Shown: piece after piece, positions 12,620 to 54,154 of the stretch | How the letters are laid out: every line of letters begins with the position of its first letter | Position numbering within the stretch: position 1 is the stretch's first letter | DNA from: Lacunisphaera limnophila | GTDB lineage: Bacteria; Verrucomicrobiota; Verrucomicrobiia; Opitutales; Opitutaceae | NCBI RefSeq assembly: GCF_001746835.1 | Contig: NZ_CP016094.1 | Coordinates: 186,001 to 250,000 of the forward strand | Direction: 5' to 3' | Length of the DNA stretch: 64,000 bases | Made by a program: the position numbers and the translations under genes | Notes under the pieces: generated by a model | Seen by the model: only the letters and a program-made list of their open reading frames with translations | Databases searched by the model: none | What the model was told of the DNA's origin: nothing

Positions 12620-13915
12620 ATGCCCTGGCTGATCCTGCTCAGCGCCCTCGCCGCCCCGCTGTTGCTCTGGGGCAGCCTGCACCTCCGTCGCCGCCATCGC
12701 CTGCTCGCGGACCTGCCGACCTCGAAAGCCGCGGGTGTGTTCATCGGGTTGACCGAACTGCAGGGCACCGCCGAATGCGCGGCGCCGCTCACCAGCACCC
12801 TCGCCGCGATGCGCTGCGTGCATTACCGCTACGTCGTCGAGGAACAGTGGTCCCGGCTGGTCACCGAGACGACCACCGACAGCAAGGGACGGTCGCGGAC
12901 CACGACCCGGCGCGAAAGCGGCTGGTCGGAGATCGCGTCCGGCGGTGAGACCGTTGATTTCTACGTCCGGGATGAGACCGGCATCGTGCTGGTCCGGCCG
13001 GAGGGGGCGAAGATCGAGCCGCTGCGGCTGTTCGACGAGACCGTGAGCCGCGGCGATGCGCTTTATTACGCCAAGGCCCCGGCCGCCGCCGTGGCCCATT
13101 CCGACCACCGCCGGCGCTTCACCGAGTACGGCCTGCCGCTGCATACGCCGCTCTTCGTCGTCGGACGGGCGCGGGAACGCACCGATGTCGTGGCCGCCGA
13201 GATCGCCGCCGACCCGGCGGCCGAGCTGTTTCTCATCTCCGCCCGCTCGGAAGCCAAGGTGCAGTCGGGGCACGCGGTCTGGTCCTGGGTCTGCCTTTTC
13301 TTCGGCCTCGTCTGTACGCTGGGCGGTTTTCTGCTCTACCAGACCTTCCGGGCGGTCCCGTTTGTCCCCTGGCATTTTATCGCGGTGGGCGCCGGCTTTC
13401 TGGCCGTCTTCACGCTGGGCTGGGTTTGGATGGTGTACAACAGCCTCGTCAGCCTGCGGGAACGCACCCGGCAGGGCTGGTCGCTGGTCGACGTCCAGCT
13501 CAAGCGCCGGCACGATCTTATCCCCGGCCTCGTCGCCGCCTGCGCCGGCCTCGCCGGTCACGAGGCGCGCACCCAGACCGCCCTGGCCGCGCTCCGCGCT
13601 CAGCAGCAGGCCACGCCACCCGGCGTCGCGGGCCCCGACTTCACGGGGCTCGCCGCTCCGCTCCGCGCGGTCATCGAGGCCCACCCGGACCTGGTGGCGC
13701 AGGCCAGCTTCGCCCGGCTGCACCAGGAACTCGTCGCGACCGAACAACGCGTGGCCCTCGCCCGCACCTACTACAACGATATCGCCACGGCCTACGCCAC
13801 CCGCCTCGAGCACATTCCCGACCGCTGGGTGGCCCGCCTCGGCCGGATGACGCCCCCGCCCCTGCTGGCGGCCACCGACTTCGAACGCGCCATCGTCCGG
13901 GTGGATTTCGCCTGA
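12620..13915 (+). CDS. GIDE-domain and LemA-domain fusion membrane protein
   Basis: 431 residues. An N-terminal membrane helix (about 3-18) is followed by a GIDE-type domain as in mitochondrial ubiquitin ligase MUL1 (about 35-210; CVHYRYVVEEQW, SGGETVDFYVRDETG), two membrane helices (about 220-243 and 252-273) and a LemA domain (about 273-431) with the signature YNSLVSLRERTRQGWSLVDVQLKRRHDLIP split over residues 273-302. There is no RING finger, so it cannot be a ubiquitin ligase. GIDE-LemA proteins are known in bacteria but have no assigned role; LemA proteins are linked to envelope stress. ATG at 12620 chosen because it starts the first helix. Confidence 0.85.
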   Translation: MPWLILLSALAAPLLLWGSLHLRRRHRLLADLPTSKAAGVFIGLTELQGTAECAAPLTSTLAAMRCVHYRYVVEEQWSRLVTETTTDSKGRSRTTTRRESGWSEIASGGETVDFYVRDETGIVLVRPEGAKIEPLRLFDETVSRGDALYYAKAPAAAVAHSDHRRRFTEYGLPLHTPLFVVGRARERTDVVAAEIAADPAAELFLISARSEAKVQSGHAVWSWVCLFFGLVCTLGGFLLYQTFRAVPFVPWHFIAVGAGFLAVFTLGWVWMVYNSLVSLRERTRQGWSLVDVQLKRRHDLIPGLVAACAGLAGHEARTQTALAALRAQQQATPPGVAGPDFTGLAAPLRAVIEAHPDLVAQASFARLHQELVATEQRVALARTYYNDIATAYATRLEHIPDRWVARLGRMTPPPLLAATDFERAIVRVDFA

Positions 13916-16955: not shown

Positions 16956-17975
16956 TTACTTGGTGCGTTTGAATTTTCCGGTGAACAGGTAGTTCATCAC
17001 CAGCGTGGTGACGTACGCGGCCACGGGCATGTCGGGCGCCGGGTCGGCCGGGCTCAGGTGCAGGTCGAGCTGGTCGCACCGGTCGATCAGGCGCGTGAGC
17101 AGCTTGTGCACGCGGTACTTCTTCTCGTTGGTGGACTCGCACACCGCATCCATCAGCCGGCGGCGGCGCGCCCGCAGCCAGGTCGAGGCCTTCGCCGCCG
17201 CGCCCGCCTCGGGGGCCCCGGCGAAGAGCTGCCGCAGGTCGCGGTCATAGAAATCGGGATAGGTGTCCTCGTTCTGCTTCCGCTTCTTCAGGTAATACGT
17301 CTTCAGTTTCTGGTTCAGGCAGTTGAAATCCTTCTCGCGGTAACCCGGCTGGTAGGGCGCGGTCTGGCCGGCCAGCGAGCGCATGAGCTCATCCACGTAC
17401 TCCAGCTTCTGCAGCGCCTTCCAGCCGTGGTAGCGCTTCCGCCAGTCGAGCCCGGGCGTCAGCCACACGGCGAAGGTCTCCGCGAAATCCTCGTCCGGGT
17501 GGCTCTGGGCATACCAGTCGTCGAGGTGCACGACGTACGAGTGGCTGTAGGGCCGCGGCCGGTAGAACTCCGGCGTGTCGTCGTTCGAGCTCTTGCCGAA
17601 GACCCGCTGCCACTTCCGCTTCCGGAACAGCTGGAACGCGTACATGTAGGCGTGCGCCGCCTCGTGGCGGATCAGGCGCATGAACCACCCCGGGGTGTCC
17701 CCCTCGACTTCGAGCATCAGCTTCGCCTCGAGCCGGCGCAGGCGCTCATGGGTCAGGAAAAACGGCACGAAGATCGCCGGGATGCCCACCGGCACGAACC
17801 ACTCGTCCCCGACATGGCACGGTGGGTGAAAGGCCAGGCCTTTGGCCGAGAGCTCGCCGTACAGCTGCTGGATCAGCGGCTCGAGGGGCGTGCCCGGCAG
17901 ACTCAGCCCCAGTTGGGAAATCTTCCGGTCCAGCAGCAAATCGTCGTCCAGATCGTGCCAGTCGGGTGATTCCAT
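16956..17975 (-). CDS. Putative zinc-binding metallopeptidase
   Basis: 339 residues, no signal peptide. HEAAH at residues 104-108 provides two zinc-binding His and the catalytic Glu; a downstream HPDEDFAETFAVW segment (about 159-171) probably gives the third ligand. This fits the putative zinc-binding metallopeptidase family (Peptidase_Mx-like). It is the first gene of a two-gene operon with the ATP-grasp ligase (three-base gap). Codons 1 to about 253 lie inside the tandem repeat and recur in damaged form at 22344-23108. Confidence 0.8.
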   Translation of the reverse strand: MESPDWHDLDDDLLLDRKISQLGLSLPGTPLEPLIQQLYGELSAKGLAFHPPCHVGDEWFVPVGIPAIFVPFFLTHERLRRLEAKLMLEVEGDTPGWFMRLIRHEAAHAYMYAFQLFRKRKWQRVFGKSSNDDTPEFYRPRPYSHSYVVHLDDWYAQSHPDEDFAETFAVWLTPGLDWRKRYHGWKALQKLEYVDELMRSLAGQTAPYQPGYREKDFNCLNQKLKTYYLKKRKQNEDTYPDFYDRDLRQLFAGAPEAGAAAKASTWLRARRRRLMDAVCESTNEKKYRVHKLLTRLIDRCDQLDLHLSPADPAPDMPVAAYVTTLVMNYLFTGKFKRTK

Positions 17976-18082
17976 CGCCGGACCCTAGCCGGAATTCGTT
18001 CCGGCATGAACCAAATTCCGCCGGCCCTGGCCCCGGGCCGCCCCGGTTTGACACCCGGCCGGCCGTTCGCCTTTCTCCCGCG

Positions 18083-18910
18083 ATGCCCATTCCGCCGCCC
18101 CTGCCCGATCCCGTCGACGCCGAGGAAGCGAGCCTGGCGCGCGAGGAAAAGGAAGCCTTCCGCCTGCCGCTGGCCGTGCCCTCCGCCCTGCGGCAAAACC
18201 CGGGCCTGGCCCTGACCGCCCTCTACCTGGGGGCCTCGGTGATCGGCATGTTCTTCCATCATCTCCTGCTGCGCCGCTTCGGCCTCAACGCGCTGGATTT
18301 TTCCGAGACCACCGACTTCCTGATGATCGTGGTGCGGGAACCCCTGACCGTCGCCCTGGCCCTGCTCGGCGTGCCGTTCTACATCGTGTACGGGAACACT
18401 GTCGTGAAAGTCGGCGGATGGCTCCAGCGGGTCTTCCCCCGACTCAAACGCAGCCCGGCCCAACGCCGGCAAAGCCTCGAGACCACCCGCCGCTGGGGCC
18501 CCTGGCTGCAAGTCGCGTTCATCCTCACCTACGCCCTGCTCTTCCTGATGCTCTACTCGACCTGGCGGGCCAATCGCATCAAGGCCGGGAACTTTCGCCC
18601 CCTGATTGTCGAGTACAAGACCGACTCGCCCCGCGTGGATGGCAGCCAGCGCTCGGATCACCTCGCTCTGCTCGGCACGACGTCGCGCTTTGCGTTTCTC
18701 TACGATCCCACGGCGCGGCGTACGGAGGTGGTGCCCCTCGATTCCATCGCCCGACTCAGCTGGGATGGCCGTACCCGCCGCGAGCAGGAGGCCGATGAAA
18801 AGGCCGCCCGCCCCACCCCGGCGGCCAACCCTCCGGCCAGCAGTCCGCTGCCCGCGGCCGCCCCGGCCGCCGCACCCCAACCGACCGCGCCGACCTCGCC
18901 CGCGGGCTGA
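18083..18910 (+). CDS. Three-helix inner-membrane protein, unknown function
   Basis: 275 residues with hydrophobic segments at about 41-63, 79-103 and 142-160, a basic loop between the second and third (KRSPAQRRQSLETTRRW) and a soluble C-terminal part with a Pro/Ala-rich tail (about 240-275). ATG at 18083 is the only start giving the compact form. No recognised family. Divergent from the metallopeptidase operon (107 bases apart). Copy B of this gene (23216-24044) carries one inserted base, so this is the trustworthy copy. Confidence 0.75.
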   Translation: MPIPPPLPDPVDAEEASLAREEKEAFRLPLAVPSALRQNPGLALTALYLGASVIGMFFHHLLLRRFGLNALDFSETTDFLMIVVREPLTVALALLGVPFYIVYGNTVVKVGGWLQRVFPRLKRSPAQRRQSLETTRRWGPWLQVAFILTYALLFLMLYSTWRANRIKAGNFRPLIVEYKTDSPRVDGSQRSDHLALLGTTSRFAFLYDPTARRTEVVPLDSIARLSWDGRTRREQEADEKAARPTPAANPPASSPLPAAAPAAAPQPTAPTSPAG

Positions 18911-19123
18911 TGACCGCCGCGCCCGCGCGGCGCCGACTGCATGTCCGCCCTGAAATGCAAGGGCGCGCCCGCGGATTGTTGCCGGGCTTATTGTCACCGC
19001 GTTGTCGCCTAACACCGCGCATCCGACGCGTCTGCTCGCCATCGCGGTCCGTAGCAGTTGCCAACACCCGGACGCTTTCGTGTCCGGATTGTTCTCAACC
19101 AAAAACAAAAAATCCGTCTCCCC

Positions 19124-19591
19124 ATGAAACTCCGTTCCCTCTTCGTCACGCTCGCGCTCGCCACGGGTCTGGTCGCTTCCGCCTCCGCCAAGACCGTCGT
19201 CGACATCGCCGTCGGCTCCCCCGACCACACCACGCTCGTCGCCGCCGTGAAAGCCGCCGGCCTCGTCGAAACCCTGAGCGGGCCCGGTCCGTTCACGATC
19301 TTCGCCCCGACCAACGCCGCCTTCGCCAAGCTCCCCGCCGGCACCGTCGAGTCCCTGCTCAAGCCCGAGAACAAGGCCCAGCTCGTGGCCGTCCTCACCT
19401 ACCACGTCGTCCCGGCCAAGGTCCTCGCCGCTGATGTGAAGTCCGGCCCCGCGCCAACCGTCAATGGCAAGACCCTCACGCTCAAGGTTGACGCCGACGG
19501 CGTGATGGTGAACAACGCCAAGGTCATCGCCACCGACCTCGTCGGCTCCAACGGTGTCATCCACGTGGTCGACACCGTCATCCTGCCCTGA
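19124..19591 (+). CDS. Secreted fasciclin (FAS1) domain protein
   Basis: 155 residues: signal peptide ([22 protein letters not shown]) and one complete FAS1 domain, with H1 motif [19 protein letters not shown] and H2-like [13 protein letters not shown] at the C-terminus. FAS1 domains mediate adhesion or bind small ligands on the cell surface. The upstream 210 bases hold no gene; a strong terminator follows. The copy at 24258 lacks one C in the run near 24419 and is frameshifted, so this copy is the reliable one. Confidence 0.9.
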
Positions 19592-19633
19592 CGCGGTCGG
19601 CCGGTTCCCGATTTTTTCGTCTCGCTTCCACGC

Positions 19634-19668
19634 GCCCCTGCGACCCTCCGGTCGCGGGGGCTTTTTTT
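19634..19668 (+). terminator. Rho-independent terminator after fasciclin gene
   Basis: Twelve-base stem GCCCCTGCGACC / GGTCGCGGGGGC (one T-G pair), four-base loop and seven T. Identical to the copy at 24767. Confidence 0.9.
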
Positions 19669-19741
19669 GGTGTCCGTTCCCGGCTCGCGCGCGGACTTGC
19701 GCCTCGCCGTCCCCGGCCGCGCCTGTTTGGCTCGAGGGGAG

Positions 19742-20438
19742 ATGAAACCCCGCCTCACCCTGCCGGTCCTCCTGTGCCTCGTCACCCCGGCCCTCGCGGG
19801 CCAGCCGTACCGCGACGCGGTGCACGCCGGCGGCCCGCAGGTCATACCCGGCGCGGTCTTCTGCGCCTACTTCGACGAGGGCGGCGAGGGCGTATCCTAT
19901 CACGACACCGATGCCGTGAACTCGGGCAGCGGCCGGCTCAATCCCGCCAACGGCACCTACCTGAACGAATTCCGGCAGCACGGCGGCCTCGACACCTCCT
20001 ACACCAAGCAGGTCCCCGATCTCGATGCACCCAGCAACCGGGTCGTGCCGCCCTCGGCCTCCTCTACGTCGGTTGGAACGAACCCGGTGAGTGGTTCAAC
20101 CTCACCGTCGAGACGGCCACGGCCGGCCCTTACACCGCCGATCTGCTGTACACGGCGCAACGTGACGCGGATGTCTCGATCGAGGTGTCCGGCGGGACAC
20201 CCCACCGCTTCACCCTGCCGTCCACCTTCGACCCCGCTGAGACCATTCCCTGGCGGCAGTGGCATCATTGGAACGTGCTGCCTGATGCCGCCACGCTCGA
20301 CCTGCCGCGGGCGTAACCGTGCTCACCGTGCGCATCGTCACCGGCGGCAACTGCAACCTCGCCACGCTCCTTTTCCGCCCGGCCGGCACCCCACGCCAAG
20401 GACCGGCCATCACGGCCCTCACCACGCCCGCGCGTTGA
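19742..20438 (+). pseudogene. Frameshifted copy A of the CBM-like secreted protein
   Basis: Starts like the intact gene at 24875 (MKPRLTLPVLLCLVTPALAG) but has one C missing near 20052 (frame lost after NRVVPP) and one G missing near 20311. The rest matches copy B base for base. Because losses fall in short runs of one base and the other copy is intact, I read this as sequence error, not gene decay. Confidence 0.8.
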
Positions 20439-20708
20439 GCGGGCCCCACTCCGGAAAGGTGGAGCGCCTTGCCCCCAAGGCGCTGCCGGCCGCGGAAAAA
20501 CGTGCAACCAGCTCTGCGGCATGGGTCCGGCTGAGGCCCCGGTCCTCGTCGGATTGATTGCCGGAATTTGGTTCCCGCTATATTTTCCGGAATAATCACC
20601 CCCCGACGGCAACCCCGGCTGCGGCCCGGGTCCGTTCAGCGGCAGACCCTACCTTGGGTCCGCCGTCGCCGGCTCCGTTGAGCCGGTCTCCCTCCACCCA
20701 CCCACCTG

Positions 20709-21167
20709 ATGAAAAAACAAAACTCTGCTTACCACCACCCTCCTCGCCACCGCTGCGCCGCCCTCCTTTTTGCGGGCTGCGCCAAAAATGATCGCGAGGA
20801 GGTCGCCGACAAGTCCAAGGAAGTCTACCAGGACACCAAGACCGCCGTCGCCGCCGGCTGGAACAACCTCAAGGACTTCACCTTCGAGAAACGCAACGAC
20901 TTCACCGCCACCCTCAAGGCCCGCCAGGCCGACCTCGAGGCCGGCATGAGCAAGCTGCGCTCCGAATACTTCCGAAGCCAACGCCAGCGCCAGCCGCAAG
21001 GCCGCCCATGGCCGAGCTGAAAGGATTCCGAGGCCAACTATTAAGGATAAGCCTCGCCGCCGTGGGCAACGCCTCCGCCGACACCTGGACTGCCGCGCGC
21101 GACGACGTCGCCGCCGCCTGGGAACCGTCTGCAGGCTTCCTACGCCAAGGCCCGCGCCGGGGAATAA
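20709..21167 (+). pseudogene. Frameshifted copy A of the coiled-coil lipoprotein
   Basis: Corresponds to the intact gene at 25843-26295. Extra A in the A-run after the start codon, a missing G near 20751 and further inserted bases (around 20969, 21006, 21022, 21044, 21051, 21121) destroy the frame. The number of errors is far higher than in the first half of copy A, as expected at a poorly covered contig end. Confidence 0.8.
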
Positions 21168-21262
21168 CCACCCCGGGCCTTGGCCCTATCCTCGCAGGCG
21201 CGTCGCCTGCCGCTCCAACTCAGTCGTTATGGAGCCGCGGCGACCTCGCCGTGGCATCACCC

Positions 21263-21293
21263 GGCGGAGGCCCGCGGGCCTCCGCCCTTTTTT
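21263..21293 (+). terminator. Intrinsic terminator, copy A
   Basis: GGCGGAGGC / GCCTCCGCC stem followed by six T; duplicate of the terminator at 26393. Confidence 0.75.
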
Positions 21294-21309
21294 CGCCCAC
21301 CCGCCCCGC

Positions 21310-22343
21310 TCACGCCGCGAGGAAAACCCGTCACGATCAGCAGCGCCACGGCAGGATGCCCATCAGGCTCTCGCCGGCGATTAGGCCCGACGCCACCGGC
21401 ACCACCGTCTTCTCCGCCAGCACGGGATGCTTGCGGCGCAGCACTCGCGCCCGCCGCGCCCAGGAACATCGCGATGCAATTGCTGCCGGGATCACCATCG
21501 CGATGCCGATTGCCGGAGGGGGCGACGGCAGCAGCGGACGAAGCCTCTTGGGCGCGAACTTTCTCGGCCAGCGCCAGCGCCACGCCGAGCGCGAGGCCGA
21601 TCAGGCATCGCCGACTTCGAGGAGGGATGCAGCGCCGACAGCGCCATGCGCGAAACGCCTGCGACACCCCCGCCCAGACCACACACGACGGCGCCGGCCA
21701 GGCCTCGCCCCCGAGCACGCTCGCGGTTCGGGGAATGATCAGGTTGAAGGCGGGCACCACCACGATGGCCCCGACCACCACGCCGAAGAGCTGCGCATAG
21801 ACCTGGTGCCGCGGCTTTGCGCCGAGCCAGGCCAGCCGTCTTGAGCGTGGTCAACAAATCCGCGGCGTGCAGGCCGATGCCGCCCGTGACGTTGGCCGAC
21901 ATGATGTTTCCCGCCACGTTGCCGGGCGTGATGATGCCGTAGATCATCTGCGTGACCGGACCCAGCGCCTTCGTCGGCGTCACATCCGTCTCGCCCGTCA
22001 CGCGCGCGGCCACGAATCCCATGACCACCGCCAGCGGCACGGCGATGAGCCGGCCCAGAGCGGAATCTGGAACAAACCCACCATCAGCGCGGTGACGACG
22101 GGGGCGCCAGCACGACGAAACCAACCGGAAACCACCACGCGGGACACTCGATGGCGGCGATGCCGCTGTCCCCCGCCTCGGCCTGTTTCCGGAACCACGC
22201 GCGTCAGGCCGCTGAAGGAGCGCCCGATGCTCTTGTAATCCAGCGCGAACGACGTGAGCCCCGAAGCCACGAGGATCGCCGCGCCCGGCCAGAGCGTCCA
22301 GGCCACGATGGCCTTGTAACTGACGGTGGTCACGATGCCCTGT
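21310..22343 (-). pseudogene. Truncated and frameshifted copy A of the OPT transporter (C-terminal part)
   Basis: Matches the C-terminal half of the OPT transporter at 26440-28281 but is broken by many one-base indels and lacks the N-terminal half, because copy A ends at 22343 and the sequence jumps to metallopeptidase. The break is not at any repeat or transposon end. Best explained as the low-quality end of a contig. Confidence 0.8.
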
Positions 22344-23108
22344 CCCCGGCGAAGAGCTGCCGCAGGTCGCGGTCATAGAAATCGGGATAGGTGTCCTCGT
22401 TCTGCTTCCGCTTCTTCAGGTAATACGTCTTCAGTTTCTGGTTCAGGCAGTTGAAATCCTTCTCGCGGTAACCCGGCTGGTAGGGCGCGGTCTGGCCGGC
22501 CAGCGAGCGCATGAGCTCATCCACGTACTCCAGCTTCTGCAGCGCCTTCCAGCCGTGGTAGCGCTTCCGCCAGTCGAGCCCGGGCGTCAGCCACACGGCG
22601 AAGGTCTCCGCGAAATCCTCGTCCGGGTGGCTCTGGGCATACCAGTCGTCGAGGTGCACGACGTACGAGTGGCTGTAGGGCCGCGGCGGTAGAACTCCGG
22701 CGTGTCGTCGTTCGAGCTCTTGCCGAAGACCCGCTGCCACTTCCGCTTCCGGAACAGCTGGAACGCGTACATGTAGGCGTGCGCCGCCTCGTGGCGGATC
22801 AGGCGCATGAACCACCCCGGGGTGTCCCCCTCGACTTCGAGCATCAGCTTCGCCTCGAGCCGGCGCAGGGCGCTCATGGGTCAGGAAAAAACGGCACGAA
22901 GATCGCCGCGGATGCCCACGGCACGAACCACTCGTCCCCGACATGGCACGGGTGGGTGAAAGGCCCAGGCCTTTGGCCGAGAGCTCCGCCGTACAGCTGC
23001 TGGATCAGCGGCTCGAGGGGCGTGCCCGGCAGACTCAGCCCCAGTTTGGGAAATCTTCCGGTCCAGCAGCAAATCGTCGTCCAGATCGTGCCAGTCGGGT
23101 GATTCCAT
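22344..23108 (-). pseudogene. Truncated and frameshifted copy B of the zinc metallopeptidase (N-terminal part)
   Basis: Begins with MESPDWHDLDDDLLLD like the intact gene at 16956-17975 but ends at the repeat junction after about 253 codons. Compared with copy A it has one C missing near 22686, extra bases near 22869, 22886, 22909, 22951, 22966, 22987 and 23047, and one C missing near 22919. HEAAH is still readable in one frame. Likely assembly error. Confidence 0.8.
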
Positions 23109-23215
23109 CGCCGGACCCTAGCCGGAATTCGTTCCGGCATGAACCAAATTCCGCCGGCCCTGGCCCCGGGCCGCCCCGGTTTGACACCCGGCCGGCCGTT
23201 CGCCTTTCTCCCGCG

Positions 23216-24044
23216 ATGCCCATTCCGCCGCCCCTGCCCGATCCCGTCGACGCCGAGGAAGCGAGCCTGGCGCGCGAGGAAAAGGAAGCCTTCCGCCTGC
23301 CGCTGGCCGTGCCCTCCGCCCTGCGGCAAAACCCGGGCCTGGCCCTGACCGCCCTCTACCTGGGGGCCTCGGTGATCGGGCATGTTCTTCCATCATCTCC
23401 TGCTGCGCCGCTTCGGCCTCAACGCGCTGGATTTTTCCGAGACCACCGACTTCCTGATGATCGTGGTGCGGGAACCCCTGACCGTCGCCCTGGCCCTGCT
23501 CGGCGTGCCGTTCTACATCGTGTACGGGAACACTGTCGTGAAAGTCGGCGGATGGCTCCAGCGGGTCTTCCCCCGACTCAAACGCAGCCCGGCCCAACGC
23601 CGGCAAAGCCTCGAGACCACCCGCCGCTGGGGCCCCTGGCTGCAAGTCGCGTTCATCCTCACCTACGCCCTGCTCTTCCTGATGCTCTACTCGACCTGGC
23701 GGGCCAATCGCATCAAGGCCGGGAACTTTCGCCCCCTGATTGTCGAGTACAAGACCGACTCGCCCCGCGTGGATGGCAGCCAGCGCTCGGATCACCTCGC
23801 TCTGCTCGGCACGACGTCGCGCTTTGCGTTTCTCTACGATCCCACGGCGCGGCGTACGGAGGTGGTGCCCCTCGATTCCATCGCCCGACTCAGCTGGGAT
23901 GGCCGTACCCGCCGCGAGCAGGAGGCCGATGAAAAGGCCGCCCGCCCCACCCCGGCGGCCAACCCTCCGGCCAGCAGTCCGCTGCCCGCGGCCGCCCCGG
24001 CCGCCGCACCCCAACCGACCGCGCCGACCTCGCCCGCGGGCTGA
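23216..24044 (+). pseudogene. Frameshifted copy B of the three-helix membrane protein
   Basis: Identical to the intact gene at 18083-18910 except for one extra G in the run near 23378, which shifts the frame inside the first membrane helix. Everything downstream is intact in the other frame. Confidence 0.8.
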
Positions 24045-24257
24045 TGACCGCCGCGCCCGCGCGGCGCCGACTGCATGTCCGCCCTGAAATGCAAGGGCGC
24101 GCCCGCGGATTGTTGCCGGGCTTATTGTCACCGCGTTGTCGCCTAACACCGCGCATCCGACGCGTCTGCTCGCCATCGCGGTCCGTAGCAGTTGCCAACA
24201 CCCGGACGCTTTCGTGTCCGGATTGTTCTCAACCAAAAACAAAAAATCCGTCTCCCC

Positions 24258-24724
24258 ATGAAACTCCGTTCCCTCTTCGTCACGCTCGCGCTCGCCACGG
24301 GTCTGGTCGCTTCCGCCTCCGCCAAGACCGTCGTCGACATCGCCGTCGGCTCCCCCGACCACACCACGCTCGTCGCCGCCGTGAAAGCCGCCGGCCTCGT
24401 CGAAACCCTGAGCGGGCCGGTCCGTTCACGATCTTCGCCCCGACCAACGCCGCCTTCGCCAAGCTCCCCGCCGGCACCGTCGAGTCCCTGCTCAAGCCCG
24501 AGAACAAGGCCCAGCTCGTGGCCGTCCTCACCTACCACGTCGTCCCGGCCAAGGTCCTCGCCGCTGATGTGAAGTCCGGCCCCGCGCCAACCGTCAATGG
24601 CAAGACCCTCACGCTCAAGGTTGACGCCGACGGCGTGATGGTGAACAACGCCAAGGTCATCGCCACCGACCTCGTCGGCTCCAACGGTGTCATCCACGTG
24701 GTCGACACCGTCATCCTGCCCTGA
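24258..24724 (+). pseudogene. Frameshifted copy B of the fasciclin protein
   Basis: Identical to the gene at 19124-19591 except for one missing C near 24419, inside the H1 motif. No other difference is seen, which argues for a sequencing error. Confidence 0.8.
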
Positions 24725-24766
24725 CGCGGTCGGCCGGTTCCCGATTTTTTCGTCTCGCTTCCACGC

Positions 24767-24801
24767 GCCCCTGCGACCCTCCGGTCGCGGGGGCTTTTTT
24801 T
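24767..24801 (+). terminator. Rho-independent terminator, copy B
   Basis: Same twelve-base stem and seven-T tail as at 19634-19668. Confidence 0.85.
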
Positions 24802-24874
24802 GGTGTCCGTTCCCGGCTCGCGCGCGGACTTGCGCCTCGCCGTCCCCGGCCGCGCCTGTTTGGCTCGAGGGGAG

Positions 24875-25573
24875 ATGAAACCCCGCCTCACCCTGCCGGT
24901 CCTCCTGTGCCTCGTCACCCCGGCCCTCGCGGGCCAGCCGTACCGCGACGCGGTGCACGCCGGCGGCCCGCAGGTCATACCCGGCGCGGTCTTCTGCGCC
25001 TACTTCGACGAGGGCGGCGAGGGCGTATCCTATCACGACACCGATGCCGTGAACTCGGGCAGCGGCCGGCTCAATCCCGCCAACGGCACCTACCTGAACG
25101 AATTCCGGCAGCACGGCGGCCTCGACACCTCCTACACCAAGCAGGTCCCCGATCTCGATGCACCCAGCAACCGGGTCGTGCCGCCCCTCGGCCTCCTCTA
25201 CGTCGGTTGGAACGAACCCGGTGAGTGGTTCAACCTCACCGTCGAGACGGCCACGGCCGGCCCTTACACCGCCGATCTGCTGTACACGGCGCAACGTGAC
25301 GCGGATGTCTCGATCGAGGTGTCCGGCGGGACACCCCACCGCTTCACCCTGCCGTCCACCTTCGACCCCGCTGAGACCATTCCCTGGCGGCAGTGGCATC
25401 ATTGGAACGTGCTGCCTGATGCCGCCACGCTCGACCTGCCGCGGGGCGTAACCGTGCTCACCGTGCGCATCGTCACCGGCGGCAACTGCAACCTCGCCAC
25501 GCTCCTTTTCCGCCCGGCCGGCACCCCACGCCAAGGACCGGCCATCACGGCCCTCACCACGCCCGCGCGTTGA
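24875..25573 (+). CDS. Secreted protein with carbohydrate-binding-like fold
   Basis: 232 residues with a signal peptide (MKPRLTLPVLLCLVTPALAG). The remainder resembles a CBM6/35-type beta-sandwich: GAVFCAYFDEGGEGVSYHDT near the start, LGLLYVGWNEPGEWFNLTVE with the conserved strand-Glu-Trp pattern, then GPYTADLLYTAQRDADVSIEV. Such domains bind sugars and often sit beside glycosidases, but this protein has no catalytic module. Intact only in copy B; the copy at 19742 is frameshifted. Confidence 0.75.
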   Translation: MKPRLTLPVLLCLVTPALAGQPYRDAVHAGGPQVIPGAVFCAYFDEGGEGVSYHDTDAVNSGSGRLNPANGTYLNEFRQHGGLDTSYTKQVPDLDAPSNRVVPPLGLLYVGWNEPGEWFNLTVETATAGPYTADLLYTAQRDADVSIEVSGGTPHRFTLPSTFDPAETIPWRQWHHWNVLPDAATLDLPRGVTVLTVRIVTGGNCNLATLLFRPAGTPRQGPAITALTTPAR

Positions 25574-25597
25574 GCGGGCCCCACTCCGGAAAGGTGG

Positions 25598-25619
25598 AGC
25601 GCCTTGCCCCCAAGGCGCT
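25598..25619. repeat. Intergenic palindromic element
   Basis: AGCGCCTTG and CAAGGCGCT separated by four C form a nine-base-pair hairpin 25 bases after the CBM-like gene, without a T-run. The preceding GGTGGAGCGC word recurs at a similar hairpin near 55856. A second copy lies at about 20463-20484 in copy A. Confidence 0.5.
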
Positions 25620-25842
25620 GCCGGCCGCGGAAAAACGTGCAACCAGCTCTGCGGCATGGGTCCGGCTGAGGCCCCGGTCCTCGTCGGATTGATTGCCGGA
25701 ATTTGGTTCCCGCTATATTTCCGGAATAATCACCCCCCGACGGCAACCCCGGCTGCGGCCCCGGGTCGTTCAGCGGCAGACCCTACCTTGGGTCCGCCGT
25801 CGCCGGCTCCGTTGAGCCGGTCTCCCTCCACCCACCCACCTG

Positions 25843-26295
25843 ATGAAAAACAAAACTCTGCTTACCACCACCCTCCTCGCCACCGGCTGCGCCGCCCTCC
25901 TTTTTGCGGGCTGCGCCAAAAATGATCGCGAGGAGGTCGCCGACAAGTCCAAGGAAGTCTACCAGGACACCAAGACCGCCGTCGCCGCCGGCTGGAACAA
26001 CCTCAAGGACTTCACCTTCGAGAAACGCAACGACTTCACCGCCACCCTCAAGGCCCGCCAGGCCGACCTCGAGGCCGGCATGAGCAAGCTGCGCTCCGAA
26101 TACTCCGAAGCCAACGCCAGCGCCAGCCGCAAGGCCGCCATGGCCGAGCTGAAGGATTCCGAGGCCAACTATAAGGATAAGCTCGCCGCCGTGGGCAACG
26201 CCTCCGCCGACACCTGGACTGCCGCGCGCGACGACGTCGCCGCCGCCTGGGACCGTCTGCAGGCTTCCTACGCCAAGGCCCGCGCCGGGGAATAA
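25843..26295 (+). CDS. Coiled-coil lipoprotein
   Basis: 150 residues. Signal peptide with lipobox FAGC (lipidated Cys24), then an almost entirely helical, highly charged region with Ala-rich heptads (EVADKSKEVYQDTKTAVAAGW, ANASASRKAAMAELKDSEAN). The pattern resembles apolipoprotein-like or Lpp-like envelope lipoproteins; a structural role in the envelope is inferred. Followed by a strong terminator and convergent with the OPT transporter. The other copy at 20709 is frameshifted. Confidence 0.8.
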   Translation: MKNKTLLTTTLLATGCAALLFAGCAKNDREEVADKSKEVYQDTKTAVAAGWNNLKDFTFEKRNDFTATLKARQADLEAGMSKLRSEYSEANASASRKAAMAELKDSEANYKDKLAAVGNASADTWTAARDDVAAAWDRLQASYAKARAGE

Positions 26296-26392
26296 CCACC
26301 CCGGGGCCTTGGCCCTATCCTCGCAGGCGCGGTCGCCTGCGCTCCAACTCAGTCGTTATGGAGCCGCGGCGACCTCGCCGTGGGCATCACCC

Positions 26393-26423
26393 GGCGGAGG
26401 CCCGCGGGCCTCCGCCCTTTTTT
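26393..26423 (+). terminator. Intrinsic terminator between convergent genes
   Basis: GGCGGAGGC / GCCTCCGCC stem with a CCGCGG loop and six T, after the coiled-coil lipoprotein gene and before the stop of the OPT transporter. Confidence 0.85.
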
Positions 26424-26439
26424 CGCCCACCCGCCCCGC

Positions 26440-28281
26440 TCACGCCGCGAGGAAACCCGTCACGATCAGCAGCGCCACGAGGATGCCCATCAGGCTCTCG
26501 CCGGCGATTAGGCCCGACGCCACCGGCACCACCGTCTTCTCCGCCAGCACGGGATGCTTGCGGCGCAGCCACTCGGCGCCCGCCGCGCCCAGGAACATCG
26601 CGATGCAATTGCTGCCCGGGATCACCATCGCGATGCCGATGCCGGAGGGCGACGGCAGCAGCGGACGAAGCCTCTTGGGCGCGAACTTCTCGGCCAGCGC
26701 CAGCGCCACGCCGAGCGCGAGGCCGATCAGGATCGCCGACTTCGAGGAGGGATGCAGCGCCGACACGCCATGCGCGAACGCCTGCGACACCCCCGCCCAG
26801 ACCACACACGACGGCGCCGGCCAGGCCTCGCCCCCGAGCACGCTCGGGTCGGGAATGATCAGGTTGAAGGCGGGCACCACCACGATGGCCCCGACCACCA
26901 CGCCGAAGAGCTGCGCATAGACCTGGTGCCGCGGCTTTGCGCCGAGCAGCCAGCCGGTCTTGAGCGTGGTCAACAAATCCGCGGCGTGCAGGCCGATGCC
27001 GCCCGTGACGTTGGCCGACATGATGTTTCCCGCCACGTTGCCGGGCGTGATGATGCCGTAGATCATCTGCGTGACCGGACCCAGCGCCTTCGTCGGCGTC
27101 ACATCCGTCTCGCCCGTCACGCGCGCGGCCACGAATCCCATGACCACCGCCAGCGGCACGGCGATGAGCCCGGCCCAGAGCGGAATCTGGAACAAACCCA
27201 CCATCAGCGCGGTGACGACGGGCGCCAGCACGACGAAACCAACCGGAAACCACCACGCGGGACACTCGATGGCGGCGATGCCGCTGTCCCCCGCCTCGGC
27301 CTGTTTCCGGAACACGCGCGTCAGGCCGCTGAAGGAGCGCCCGATGCTCTTGTAATCCAGCGCGAACGACGTGAGCCCCGAAGCCACGAGGATCGCCGCG
27401 CCCGGCCAGAGCGTCCAGGCCACGATGGCCTTGTAACTGACGGTGGTCACGATGCCCTGTGCGACCAGGGCCGGCGCCAGCACGGCGTAGGTGAGCAAGC
27501 CTCCCAGCAGCATCGACCAGCCCGTGCGGAAACTCATCAGGGCGCCGCCGCCGAGCAGCACGACCTCGGCCTTCAACGCGATCGTCCACTGCGCGAGGCT
27601 GTGGCCGGCCAGCGTCACCGGCAGCCCGATCGTGCCGGGAATCCAGTGCCACGCGTCGCGCAGCCAGGTGAAGACCGCGGCAAAGACCGCCGAGCCGCCC
27701 AGCCACGCGGCCTTGCCCGCGCCCCCGCCCGCCGCGGCGGTGTGGATCGACTGGATCGTCTCCGCCGTGGCCGTGCCGGTCGGAAACGCCAGCCCCTCCT
27801 GGTTGATGAGCTGCCGCTTGATCGGGATCGCCGCGAACACGCCCAGCGCCGCGATGACACCAAACCACGCGATCATCGAAATCGTGTCCGGTCGCACCGT
27901 CGTGATCATGAACAGCGCGCCGAAGGCCGCCATGTTGCCGCCGCCGGTCATGTAACCCGCCCCCGAGGCGACCGTGGTCAGCGCGTTGTTCTCCAGCGGC
28001 CCGAGCGGTTTCTTCACGATCCGCAGCGCCTGCAGCAGCTGGAATGACCCAAAGGCCAGGATGCACGCCGTCAGCGTCACCCCCATGCTCCAGCCCGTCT
28101 TGAAAAACACGTAGATGTTCGAGAGGCACATCGCCGCCCCGATCAACATGCCGACCACCACCGCCCGCACCGTGAGATTCGCGTCGTGCGGCCGGTACGT
28201 GTTTTTCAGCCAGTCGGCTTCGCGGGTGGAGGCATCAGCCGGCACGGCGGCCGGGACGGGGGAAGCAGACGGAGCGGACAT
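26440..28281 (-). CDS. OPT family oligopeptide transporter
   Basis: 613-residue inner-membrane protein of the OPT superfamily, which imports peptides or metal-chelating compounds by proton symport. Typical signatures: GMLIGAAMCLSNIYVFFKTGW near the N-terminus, NQEGLAFPTGTATAETI in the first half and GIGIAMVIPGSNCIAMFLGA near the C-terminus, among many hydrophobic segments. The start at 28281 is preferred over an upstream reading because it removes a non-family leader. The C-terminal 340 codons lie in tandem copy B; a broken partial copy is at 21310-22343. Confidence 0.9.
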   Translation of the reverse strand: MSAPSASPVPAAVPADASTREADWLKNTYRPHDANLTVRAVVVGMLIGAAMCLSNIYVFFKTGWSMGVTLTACILAFGSFQLLQALRIVKKPLGPLENNALTTVASGAGYMTGGGNMAAFGALFMITTVRPDTISMIAWFGVIAALGVFAAIPIKRQLINQEGLAFPTGTATAETIQSIHTAAAGGGAGKAAWLGGSAVFAAVFTWLRDAWHWIPGTIGLPVTLAGHSLAQWTIALKAEVVLLGGGALMSFRTGWSMLLGGLLTYAVLAPALVAQGIVTTVSYKAIVAWTLWPGAAILVASGLTSFALDYKSIGRSFSGLTRVFRKQAEAGDSGIAAIECPAWWFPVGFVVLAPVVTALMVGLFQIPLWAGLIAVPLAVVMGFVAARVTGETDVTPTKALGPVTQMIYGIITPGNVAGNIMSANVTGGIGLHAADLLTTLKTGWLLGAKPRHQVYAQLFGVVVGAIVVVPAFNLIIPDPSVLGGEAWPAPSCVVWAGVSQAFAHGVSALHPSSKSAILIGLALGVALALAEKFAPKRLRPLLPSPSGIGIAMVIPGSNCIAMFLGAAGAEWLRRKHPVLAEKTVVPVASGLIAGESLMGILVALLIVTGFLAA

Positions 28282-28356
28282 GCGGCGTTGGGAGGTGGGA
28301 GGTGAGGCGAACGACGGGGCCCAACGCTTATGACACGACCGGCCGGTGAACAAGCC

Positions 28357-51868: not shown

Positions 51869-51992
51869 GCCGTTTGTCCCCTCTGGGGCCTCCTTGCCCC
51901 GCGGCCCCGCGCCCCGCGTGTCCGCGCCTTCACCGGTTTATGACACTTGCCATGCCCGGTCGAAACCGGTCTTTTCGAGGCAAATTATTCCC

Positions 51993-54154
51993 ATGATCGA
52001 CTCCCGTTTCTCCCGTCGCATGTTCACCCTCCTCCCGATGGCCGCCGCCCTCCTCGCGTTGCCGGCTCACTCCGCCGAGACCGGCACGCCGCCCGTCATG
52101 ACCCCCAATCCGCTCCTCGCCCCCAGCGCCCTGCCCTACCAGCTGCCGCCGTTCGCGCTCATCAAGGACGAGCACTTCCTGCCCGCCTTCGAGCTCGGCA
52201 TGGCCGAGGAACTGCGCGAGGTCGACGCCATCGCCACCAATTCCGCCGCCCCCACCTTCGACAACACCATCGTGGCCCTCGAGCGTCGCGGCGAGACCCT
52301 CAACCGCGCCCGCCGCGCGTTCGGCATCCTCACCGGCGGCCTCACCAACCCGGCCCTGCAGAAGATCGAGGCCGAGATGTCCCCCCGCTTCTCCGCCCAC
52401 TCCGACGCGATCTTCCTCAACCACGCCCTCTTCCGCCGCATCCAGGATCTCCACGCCCGCCGCGCCACCCTCGGCCTGGACCCCGAGTCCCTCCGCCTGC
52501 TGGAACGCTACCACACCGACTACGTCCGCGCCGGCGCCCAGCTCTCCGAGGCCGACCAGACCGTGCTCAAGGCCCTCAACGCCGAACTCGCCACCCTCTC
52601 CACCCGCTTCAGCCAGAACGTCCTCAAGGAGATCAACGCCGCCGCCGTCGTGATCGACACCCGCGCGGAGCTCGCCGGCCTCTCCGACGCCGCCATCACC
52701 GCCGCCGCTGCGGCCGCCACCGCCGCCGGCCACGAGGGCAAATTCCTCCTCCGTCTCCAAAACACCACCGGCCAGCCGCCGCTCACCAACCTCACCGACC
52801 GGGTCGTCCGCGAGAAGATCATGGCCGCCTCCCTGTCCCGCGGCAGCCGCGGCGGCGAGTTCGACAACCGCGAGATCGTCTCGCGGCTCGCCAAACTCCG
52901 CGCCGAGCGCGCCGCCCTCCTCGGCTACCCCCACCACGCCGCCTACCAGCTCGAGGAACAGACCGTCGGCAGCGTCGACGTCCTCAACCGCCTCCTTGCC
53001 GAGGCCGCCCCGCTCGCCGTCGCCAACGCCCGCCGCGAGGCCGCCGCCATGGACCAGGTCATCGCCGCCGCCGGCGCCGGCCACCCCGTCGCCGCCTGGG
53101 ACTGGGCCCTCTACGCCGAGAAGGTCCGCCAGGAACGCTACGCCTTCGACGAGAACGAGCTGAAGCCGTACTACGAACTGAAGCGCGTCCTCGAGGACGG
53201 CGTGTTCTACGCCGCCACCCGCCTCTACGGCATCACGTTCAAGGCCCGGCCCGACCTTCAGGGTTACACCGACGACATGCTCGTCTACGAGATCTTCGAC
53301 GCCGACGGCTCGCCCATGGCCCTCTTCACGGGCGACTTCTACGCCCGGCCCAGCAAGCGCGGCGGCGCCTGGATGAACGCCTACGTCCCCCAGAACGGCC
53401 TCACCGGCACCAAGCCCGTCATCGGCAACCACCAGAACATCCCCAAGCCCCCGCCGGCGAGCCCACCCTCCTCACCCACGACGAGGTCAACACCATGTTC
53501 CACGAGTTCGGCCACACCCTGCACGGCCTGTTCTCCGCCGTGAAGTACCCGCGCTTCTCCGGCACCAGCGTGCCGCGCGACTTCGTCGAGTTCCCCTCCC
53601 AGGTGAACGAGATGTGGGCCACCTGGCCCGAGGTCCTGCAGAACTACGCCAAGCACTACCAGACCGGCGAACCCATCCCCGCCACCCTCCTCGCCAAGAT
53701 CGAGGCCGCCAGCAAGTTCAACCAGGGCTTCGCCACCAGCGAGTACCTCGGCGCCGCGCTGATCGACCAGGCCTGGCACCAGCTCAAGCCCGACCAGGTC
53801 CCCGACGCCGCGGGCGTGCTCGCCTTCGAGGCCGCCGCCCTCCAGCGCGCCGGGCTCGACTTCGCCCCGGTGCCGCCCCGCTACCGCAGCACCTACTTCT
53901 CCCACGTCTTCGCCGGCGGCTACTCGGCCGGCTACTACTCCTATTTCTGGAGCGAGGTCCTCGACGCCCAGACCGTCGACTGGATGAAACAGCACGGCGG
54001 ACTCACCCGCGCCAACGGCGACCGCTTCCGCGCCACCCTGCTCTCCCGCGGCGGCAGCCGCGAGGCCCTCGCCCTCTTCCGGGACTTCACCGGCCGCGAG
54101 CCCGATATCCGGCCGCTCTTCGTCCGCCGCGGGCTGGTCCCGGCCACCCCGTGA
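51993..54154 (+). pseudogene. M3-family oligopeptidase with one frameshift
   Basis: Oligopeptidase A/Dcp-type zinc peptidase. The first frame (51993 to about 53450) carries the signal-like N-terminus and central helical domain up to NHQNIPKPP; the catalytic part continues in the next frame as AGEPTLLTHDEVNTMFHEFGH (HEFGH at 53501-53515) and ends at 54154. One missing G near 53450 (CCCCCGCCGGC where CCCCCGGCCGGC would restore the frame) explains the break. A single homopolymer-adjacent loss, plus the assembly errors elsewhere, suggests sequence error; otherwise the gene is complete and probably functional. Confidence 0.85.

Follow-up and report, generated by a model that had tools for sequence, protein, structure and literature searches.

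Within its published chromosome, Lacunisphaera limnophila IG16b (Opitutaceae) carries a 5.1-kb segment twice, head to tail, and the question raised by this locus is whether the doubling exists in the cell or was made during assembly. The window, i.e. the whole stretch of DNA analysed here (64,000 nt), corresponds to positions 186001-250000 of one contig of 4,199,284 bp, on which a dnaA domain is found at 464-946. According to the main text of the genome report (PMC5303756), the chromosome has the same length and is termed closed and complete; sequencing was on the PacBio RS only, with a mean read of 3,823 bp and ~80x coverage, and assembly employed the SMRT analysis software. No description of a trimming step was found in that main text, from which the terms "circulari-", "overlap", "Quiver" and "HGAP" are absent.

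Recomputation bore out the coordinates of both copies (Table 1), their lengths (5128 and 5117 bp) and their head-to-tail order. In contrast, the claim of the original prediction that the repeat is exact did not hold. Global alignment of copy A with copy B returned 5148 columns, 5097 of them identical, 51 gapped and none with a substitution, an identity far above chance level, and the 51 gapped bases make up 48 indel events (45 of one base and three of two bases). It is this inexactness, with its indel-only pattern, that accounts for the origin of the feature.

Table 1 The two copies, their junction and the genes in and across the repeated unit (window coordinates)
Feature	Coordinates	Strand	Size	Remarks
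Copy A	17216..22343		5128 bp	Read as right-hand end of the original linear contig
Copy B	22344..27460		5117 bp	Read as left-hand end of the original linear contig
Junction A/B	22343..22344			Genome position 208343/208344; cut OPT gene fused to cut metallopeptidase gene
Error zone round the junction	20051..24417			Contains 41/41 copy-assigned errors
Putative zinc metallopeptidase gene	16956..17975	-	339 aa	Whole across left border of copy A; 9 indels in copy B version
Membrane-protein-like open frame, no Pfam match	17822..18910	+		Whole in A; one base inserted in B at 23378
Fasciclin-domain gene	19058..19591	+	177 aa	Whole in A; one base deleted in B at 24417
Gene without Pfam match	24800..25573	+	257 aa	Whole in B; two bases deleted in A (20051, 20309)
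Gene without Pfam match	25843..26295	+	150 aa	Whole in B; 8 indels in A
OPT transporter gene	26440..28353	-	637 aa	Whole across right border of copy B; 20 indels in A version

The unit contains or truncates six open frames that we treated as genes, the start of the membrane-protein-like frame being provisional. ARAGORN returned no tRNA or tmRNA gene in window positions 1-64000. Pfam searches placed the outer borders inside genes, as had been proposed: a putative zinc metallopeptidase on the left (Peptidase_Mx, E = 1.2e-5; its 25.3 bits fall slightly short of the curated threshold, 27) and, on the right, an OPT transporter (E = 1.3e-78). The closest named relatives of the OPT protein belong to the Verrucomicrobiota, mostly titled Opitutaceae, Opitutia, Opitutus or Lacunisphaera, and more distant matches come from other phyla.

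The sequences at the three borders read ...CTCGGGGG/CCCCGGCG on the left, ...GCCCTGT/CCCCGGCG at the junction and ...GCCCTGT/GCGACC on the right, with the slash marking the border. Indeed, they have no bases in common, in agreement with the predicted absence of homology and microhomology. The further claim that inverted repeats are lacking stands for lengths of at least 40 bases, the minimum length in our search of the 64-kb window (seed 20). Pfam scans of the six genes that the unit contains or cuts gave no match to a transposase family, three of the six matching no family at all. The traces that are usual, albeit not obligatory, at the borders of natural duplications (homology, microhomology or a mobile element) were therefore not found here. 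On its own, missing border homology is insufficient proof of an artefact, since a blunt duplication is possible.

Stronger evidence came from the distribution of errors between the copies, which we judged by comparison with relatives, aligning the relatives' open frames to both copies with frameshifts allowed. Matching open frames numbered 8, 2, 6, 5, 4 and at least 60 for the six genes, with some of the loci overlapping; proteins from three relatives were aligned for each of five genes and from one for the membrane-protein gene. Against these relatives, the metallopeptidase, membrane-protein and fasciclin genes had no A-specific frameshift and were shifted in B, and the 257-aa, 150-aa and OPT genes had no B-specific frameshift and were shifted in A. 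In all six genes examined, one of the two versions is disrupted. Some frameshift calls were common to A and B, namely those in L093 (near its start), in L103 and L101 (near the fasciclin start) and in L121 and L123 (in the 257-aa gene); such shared calls are uninformative on which copy is wrong.

For the assignment of individual indels, every in-gene event was placed singly in the clean copy and the result scored against one relative per gene. The alignment score dropped in all 41 cases. Errors assigned to B (n = 11) correspond to A coordinates 17559-19283 and those assigned to A (n = 30) lie at 20051-22195, i.e. along the unit the 11 B errors come first and the 30 A errors follow, with no exception among the 41 in-gene events. 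As the error side switches just once along the unit, from B to A, all assigned errors cluster round the junction: the outer 2.8 kb of copy A (17216-20050) hold none and its last 2.3 kb all 30 A errors, and the first 2.1 kb of copy B (22344-24417) hold all 11 B errors and the remainder (24418-27460) none. Seven of the 48 differences, all intergenic, carry no copy assignment (A 20583-21253, equivalent to B 25718-26382). If sides were random and independent, the chance of a perfect order would be 3.2e-10, a value that is an underestimate because the errors cluster. Directly next to the junction, no difference is seen over 148 bp on the A side and 343 bp on the B side, a point against an artefact, since the tips of a contig might be expected to be its worst part.

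Small indels are the error type of the PacBio platform, and a lean toward insertions is a trait of early PacBio (RS) reads. Insertions account for 30 and deletions for 11 of the 41 assigned errors, and 44 of all 48 indels adjoin an identical base. In comparison, the OPT gene differs from its DNA counterparts in three relatives by 285-309 substitutions and 26-32 gap events, which argues that real divergence at this gene is substitution-led.

Frame stability elsewhere was assessed by codon-usage decoding, with a codon table trained on the control stretches themselves. Within the 10,245-bp repeat, the decoder marked eight frame switches, six of them at positions without a possible gene boundary, as compared to one such switch in the window outside the repeat (53,755 bp) and two in 11 control stretches taken from elsewhere in the genome (219,284 bp in total). 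Switches explicable by a gene boundary numbered two in the repeat, four in the rest of the window and 38 in the 11 control stretches. Having marked eight switches where the alignment contains 48 indels, the decoder serves as a rate control and not as the main proof. A first setting, which considered direct switches only, detected no switch, neither in the window nor in two control stretches; that setting was blind because the path passed via a short non-coding state, and a lower switch cost worked.

Outside the repeat, the window contains a change of frame near 53445 without a stop/start pair, between open frames 51894-53543 and 51947-54154 (both on the + strand). The gene concerned looks like that of a zinc peptidase, its second part encoding the motif HEFGHTLH, and the frame change is either a one-base error that persisted in the assembly or a genuine frameshift. 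The two control-stretch switches without a possible gene boundary are L096:13327 and L127:18351; they may represent further leftover indels or decoder noise. Switches at window positions 13910, 33140, 34576 and 38846 could each be explained by an overlapping or abutting gene pair.

Taken together, the 5.1-kb doubling is very probably an assembly artefact, in which ends of the chromosome contig that bore the same sequence were joined untrimmed. This is the origin that had been proposed from the missing border traces; its main support lies instead in the indel-only differences and the one-way switch of the errors, which place the assigned errors round the junction. The record displays what a contig-end overlap should leave behind: a head-to-tail direct repeat, errors in the junction half of each copy (41/41 of those assigned, with 7/48 differences, intergenic, left over), differences matching the error type of the platform (48 indels and no substitutions in a PacBio RS-only genome) and a record start, marked by dnaA at 464-946, that is distant from the join at 208343/208344. 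The start at dnaA and the published, PacBio-only closed chromosome are likewise consistent with an artefact.

We propose that the break made in the circular chromosome by the assembler fell at an arbitrary position, so that the linear contig would have started at what is now 22344, circled the chromosome once and ended at what is now 22343. Both contig ends would then have covered the identical 5.1 kb, read a second time. The outermost 2.1-2.3 kb of each end were probably supported by few reads, or by few uniquely placed ones, and with such poor support small PacBio indels would have been left uncorrected. The ends were presumably joined without deletion of one copy, and the circle, as the position of dnaA suggests, was afterwards rotated to start at that gene. 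After such a rotation, the join would lie 208 kb into the record, where it appears as a head-to-tail "duplication". We infer that the cell has one copy per chromosome; the true chromosome length would be ~5.1 kb below the published value.

The explanation that comes closest, improbable as we consider it, is that the 5.1-kb unit was truly duplicated in tandem, very recently, and that the cell has two identical copies; the indels would then be sequencing errors left in the central part of the array, where reads could not be placed uniquely. It predicts nearly the same picture, with copies that differ by indels alone and are each clean in the outer half: were polishing achieved solely by reads anchored in unique flanks, the outer 2.8 and 3.0 kb would be clean and the middle dirty, the mean read of 3.8 kb given in the main text of the genome report is shorter than the unit, and a genuine repeat at which the contig broke off would have much the same appearance. 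What tells against it begins at the borders, where the lack of any shared base and of a detectable Ku protein leaves no sign of border repeats or Ku-dependent end joining, other routes to a duplication being possible. For Ku, the PF02735 profile had no match in this one genome, and the same search was positive in one of 14 control genomes (Bacillus subtilis). Recombination should frequently reduce an identical 5-kb tandem pair to one copy, and the explanation needs such a supposedly unstable pair to have been present in the sequenced culture. In addition, an error rate of ~1.6% (37 indels in 2.3 kb if the seven unassigned differences are attributed to A) is, in our judgement, high for the interior of a contig at 80x. 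Finally, a real duplication would have to coincide with the join that every circularised contig must have somewhere. That the strain possesses a real blunt duplication that extends from the metallopeptidase gene as far as the OPT transporter gene, either selected or very fresh, and that the assembly broke exactly there, is accordingly a prospect to which we attach little probability.

We give next to no credence to an old tandem duplication followed by independent pseudogene decay in its two copies. The broken state of each of the six genes in one copy is what it would produce, yet such decay should have brought substitutions, of which there are none in 5.1 kb beside 48 indels, and the assigned damage is restricted to the right part of A and the left part of B. 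A misjoin of two strains from a mixed culture, which could yield two near-identical versions of one region, is scarcely credible either, since strain differences should include substitutions and none is present; moreover, the main text of the genome report (PMC5303756) states that culture purity was tested by its authors with 16S clone libraries. Pseudogene decay and strain mixture were both rated very low on account of the zero substitutions between the copies. A single copy of the unit in relatives was excluded as evidence, with at most five candidates scored per genome and 31 of 57 genomes matched, its own included; the two sought genes without Pfam match were present in four and five of 21 genomes, again with its own included.

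If the doubling is an untrimmed overlap of contig ends, as we favour, a reference chromosome termed closed and complete is ~5.1 kb too long, and its record contains spurious paralogues and pseudogenes as well as a spurious junction between two truncated genes. The feature itself is ordinary and matters only as a correction of the reference genome. Its signature, i.e. copies that differ by indels alone and errors that switch side once and lie close to the junction on both sides, is recognisable from the sequence by itself and could be used to screen other finished long-read genomes for untrimmed overlaps.

Natural tandem duplications in bacteria are like the present case in being head-to-tail direct repeats in which each outer border is spanned by an intact gene and two truncated genes meet at the junction; unlike them, the repeat described here has no border homology, differs between copies by indels only and has its assigned errors round the junction. 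The closer counterpart is the situation documented in the Circlator report (PMC4699355) for long-read assembly of circular molecules, where contig ends are of low quality and bear the same sequence. As that report describes for PacBio data, near-identical low-quality sequence is found at both ends of a contig and should be merged into one, and the same applies to the two copies analysed here. In contrast to the overlaps described there, the ends in the present record would have been joined beforehand and the circle restarted at dnaA, placing the overlap 208 kb inside the record.
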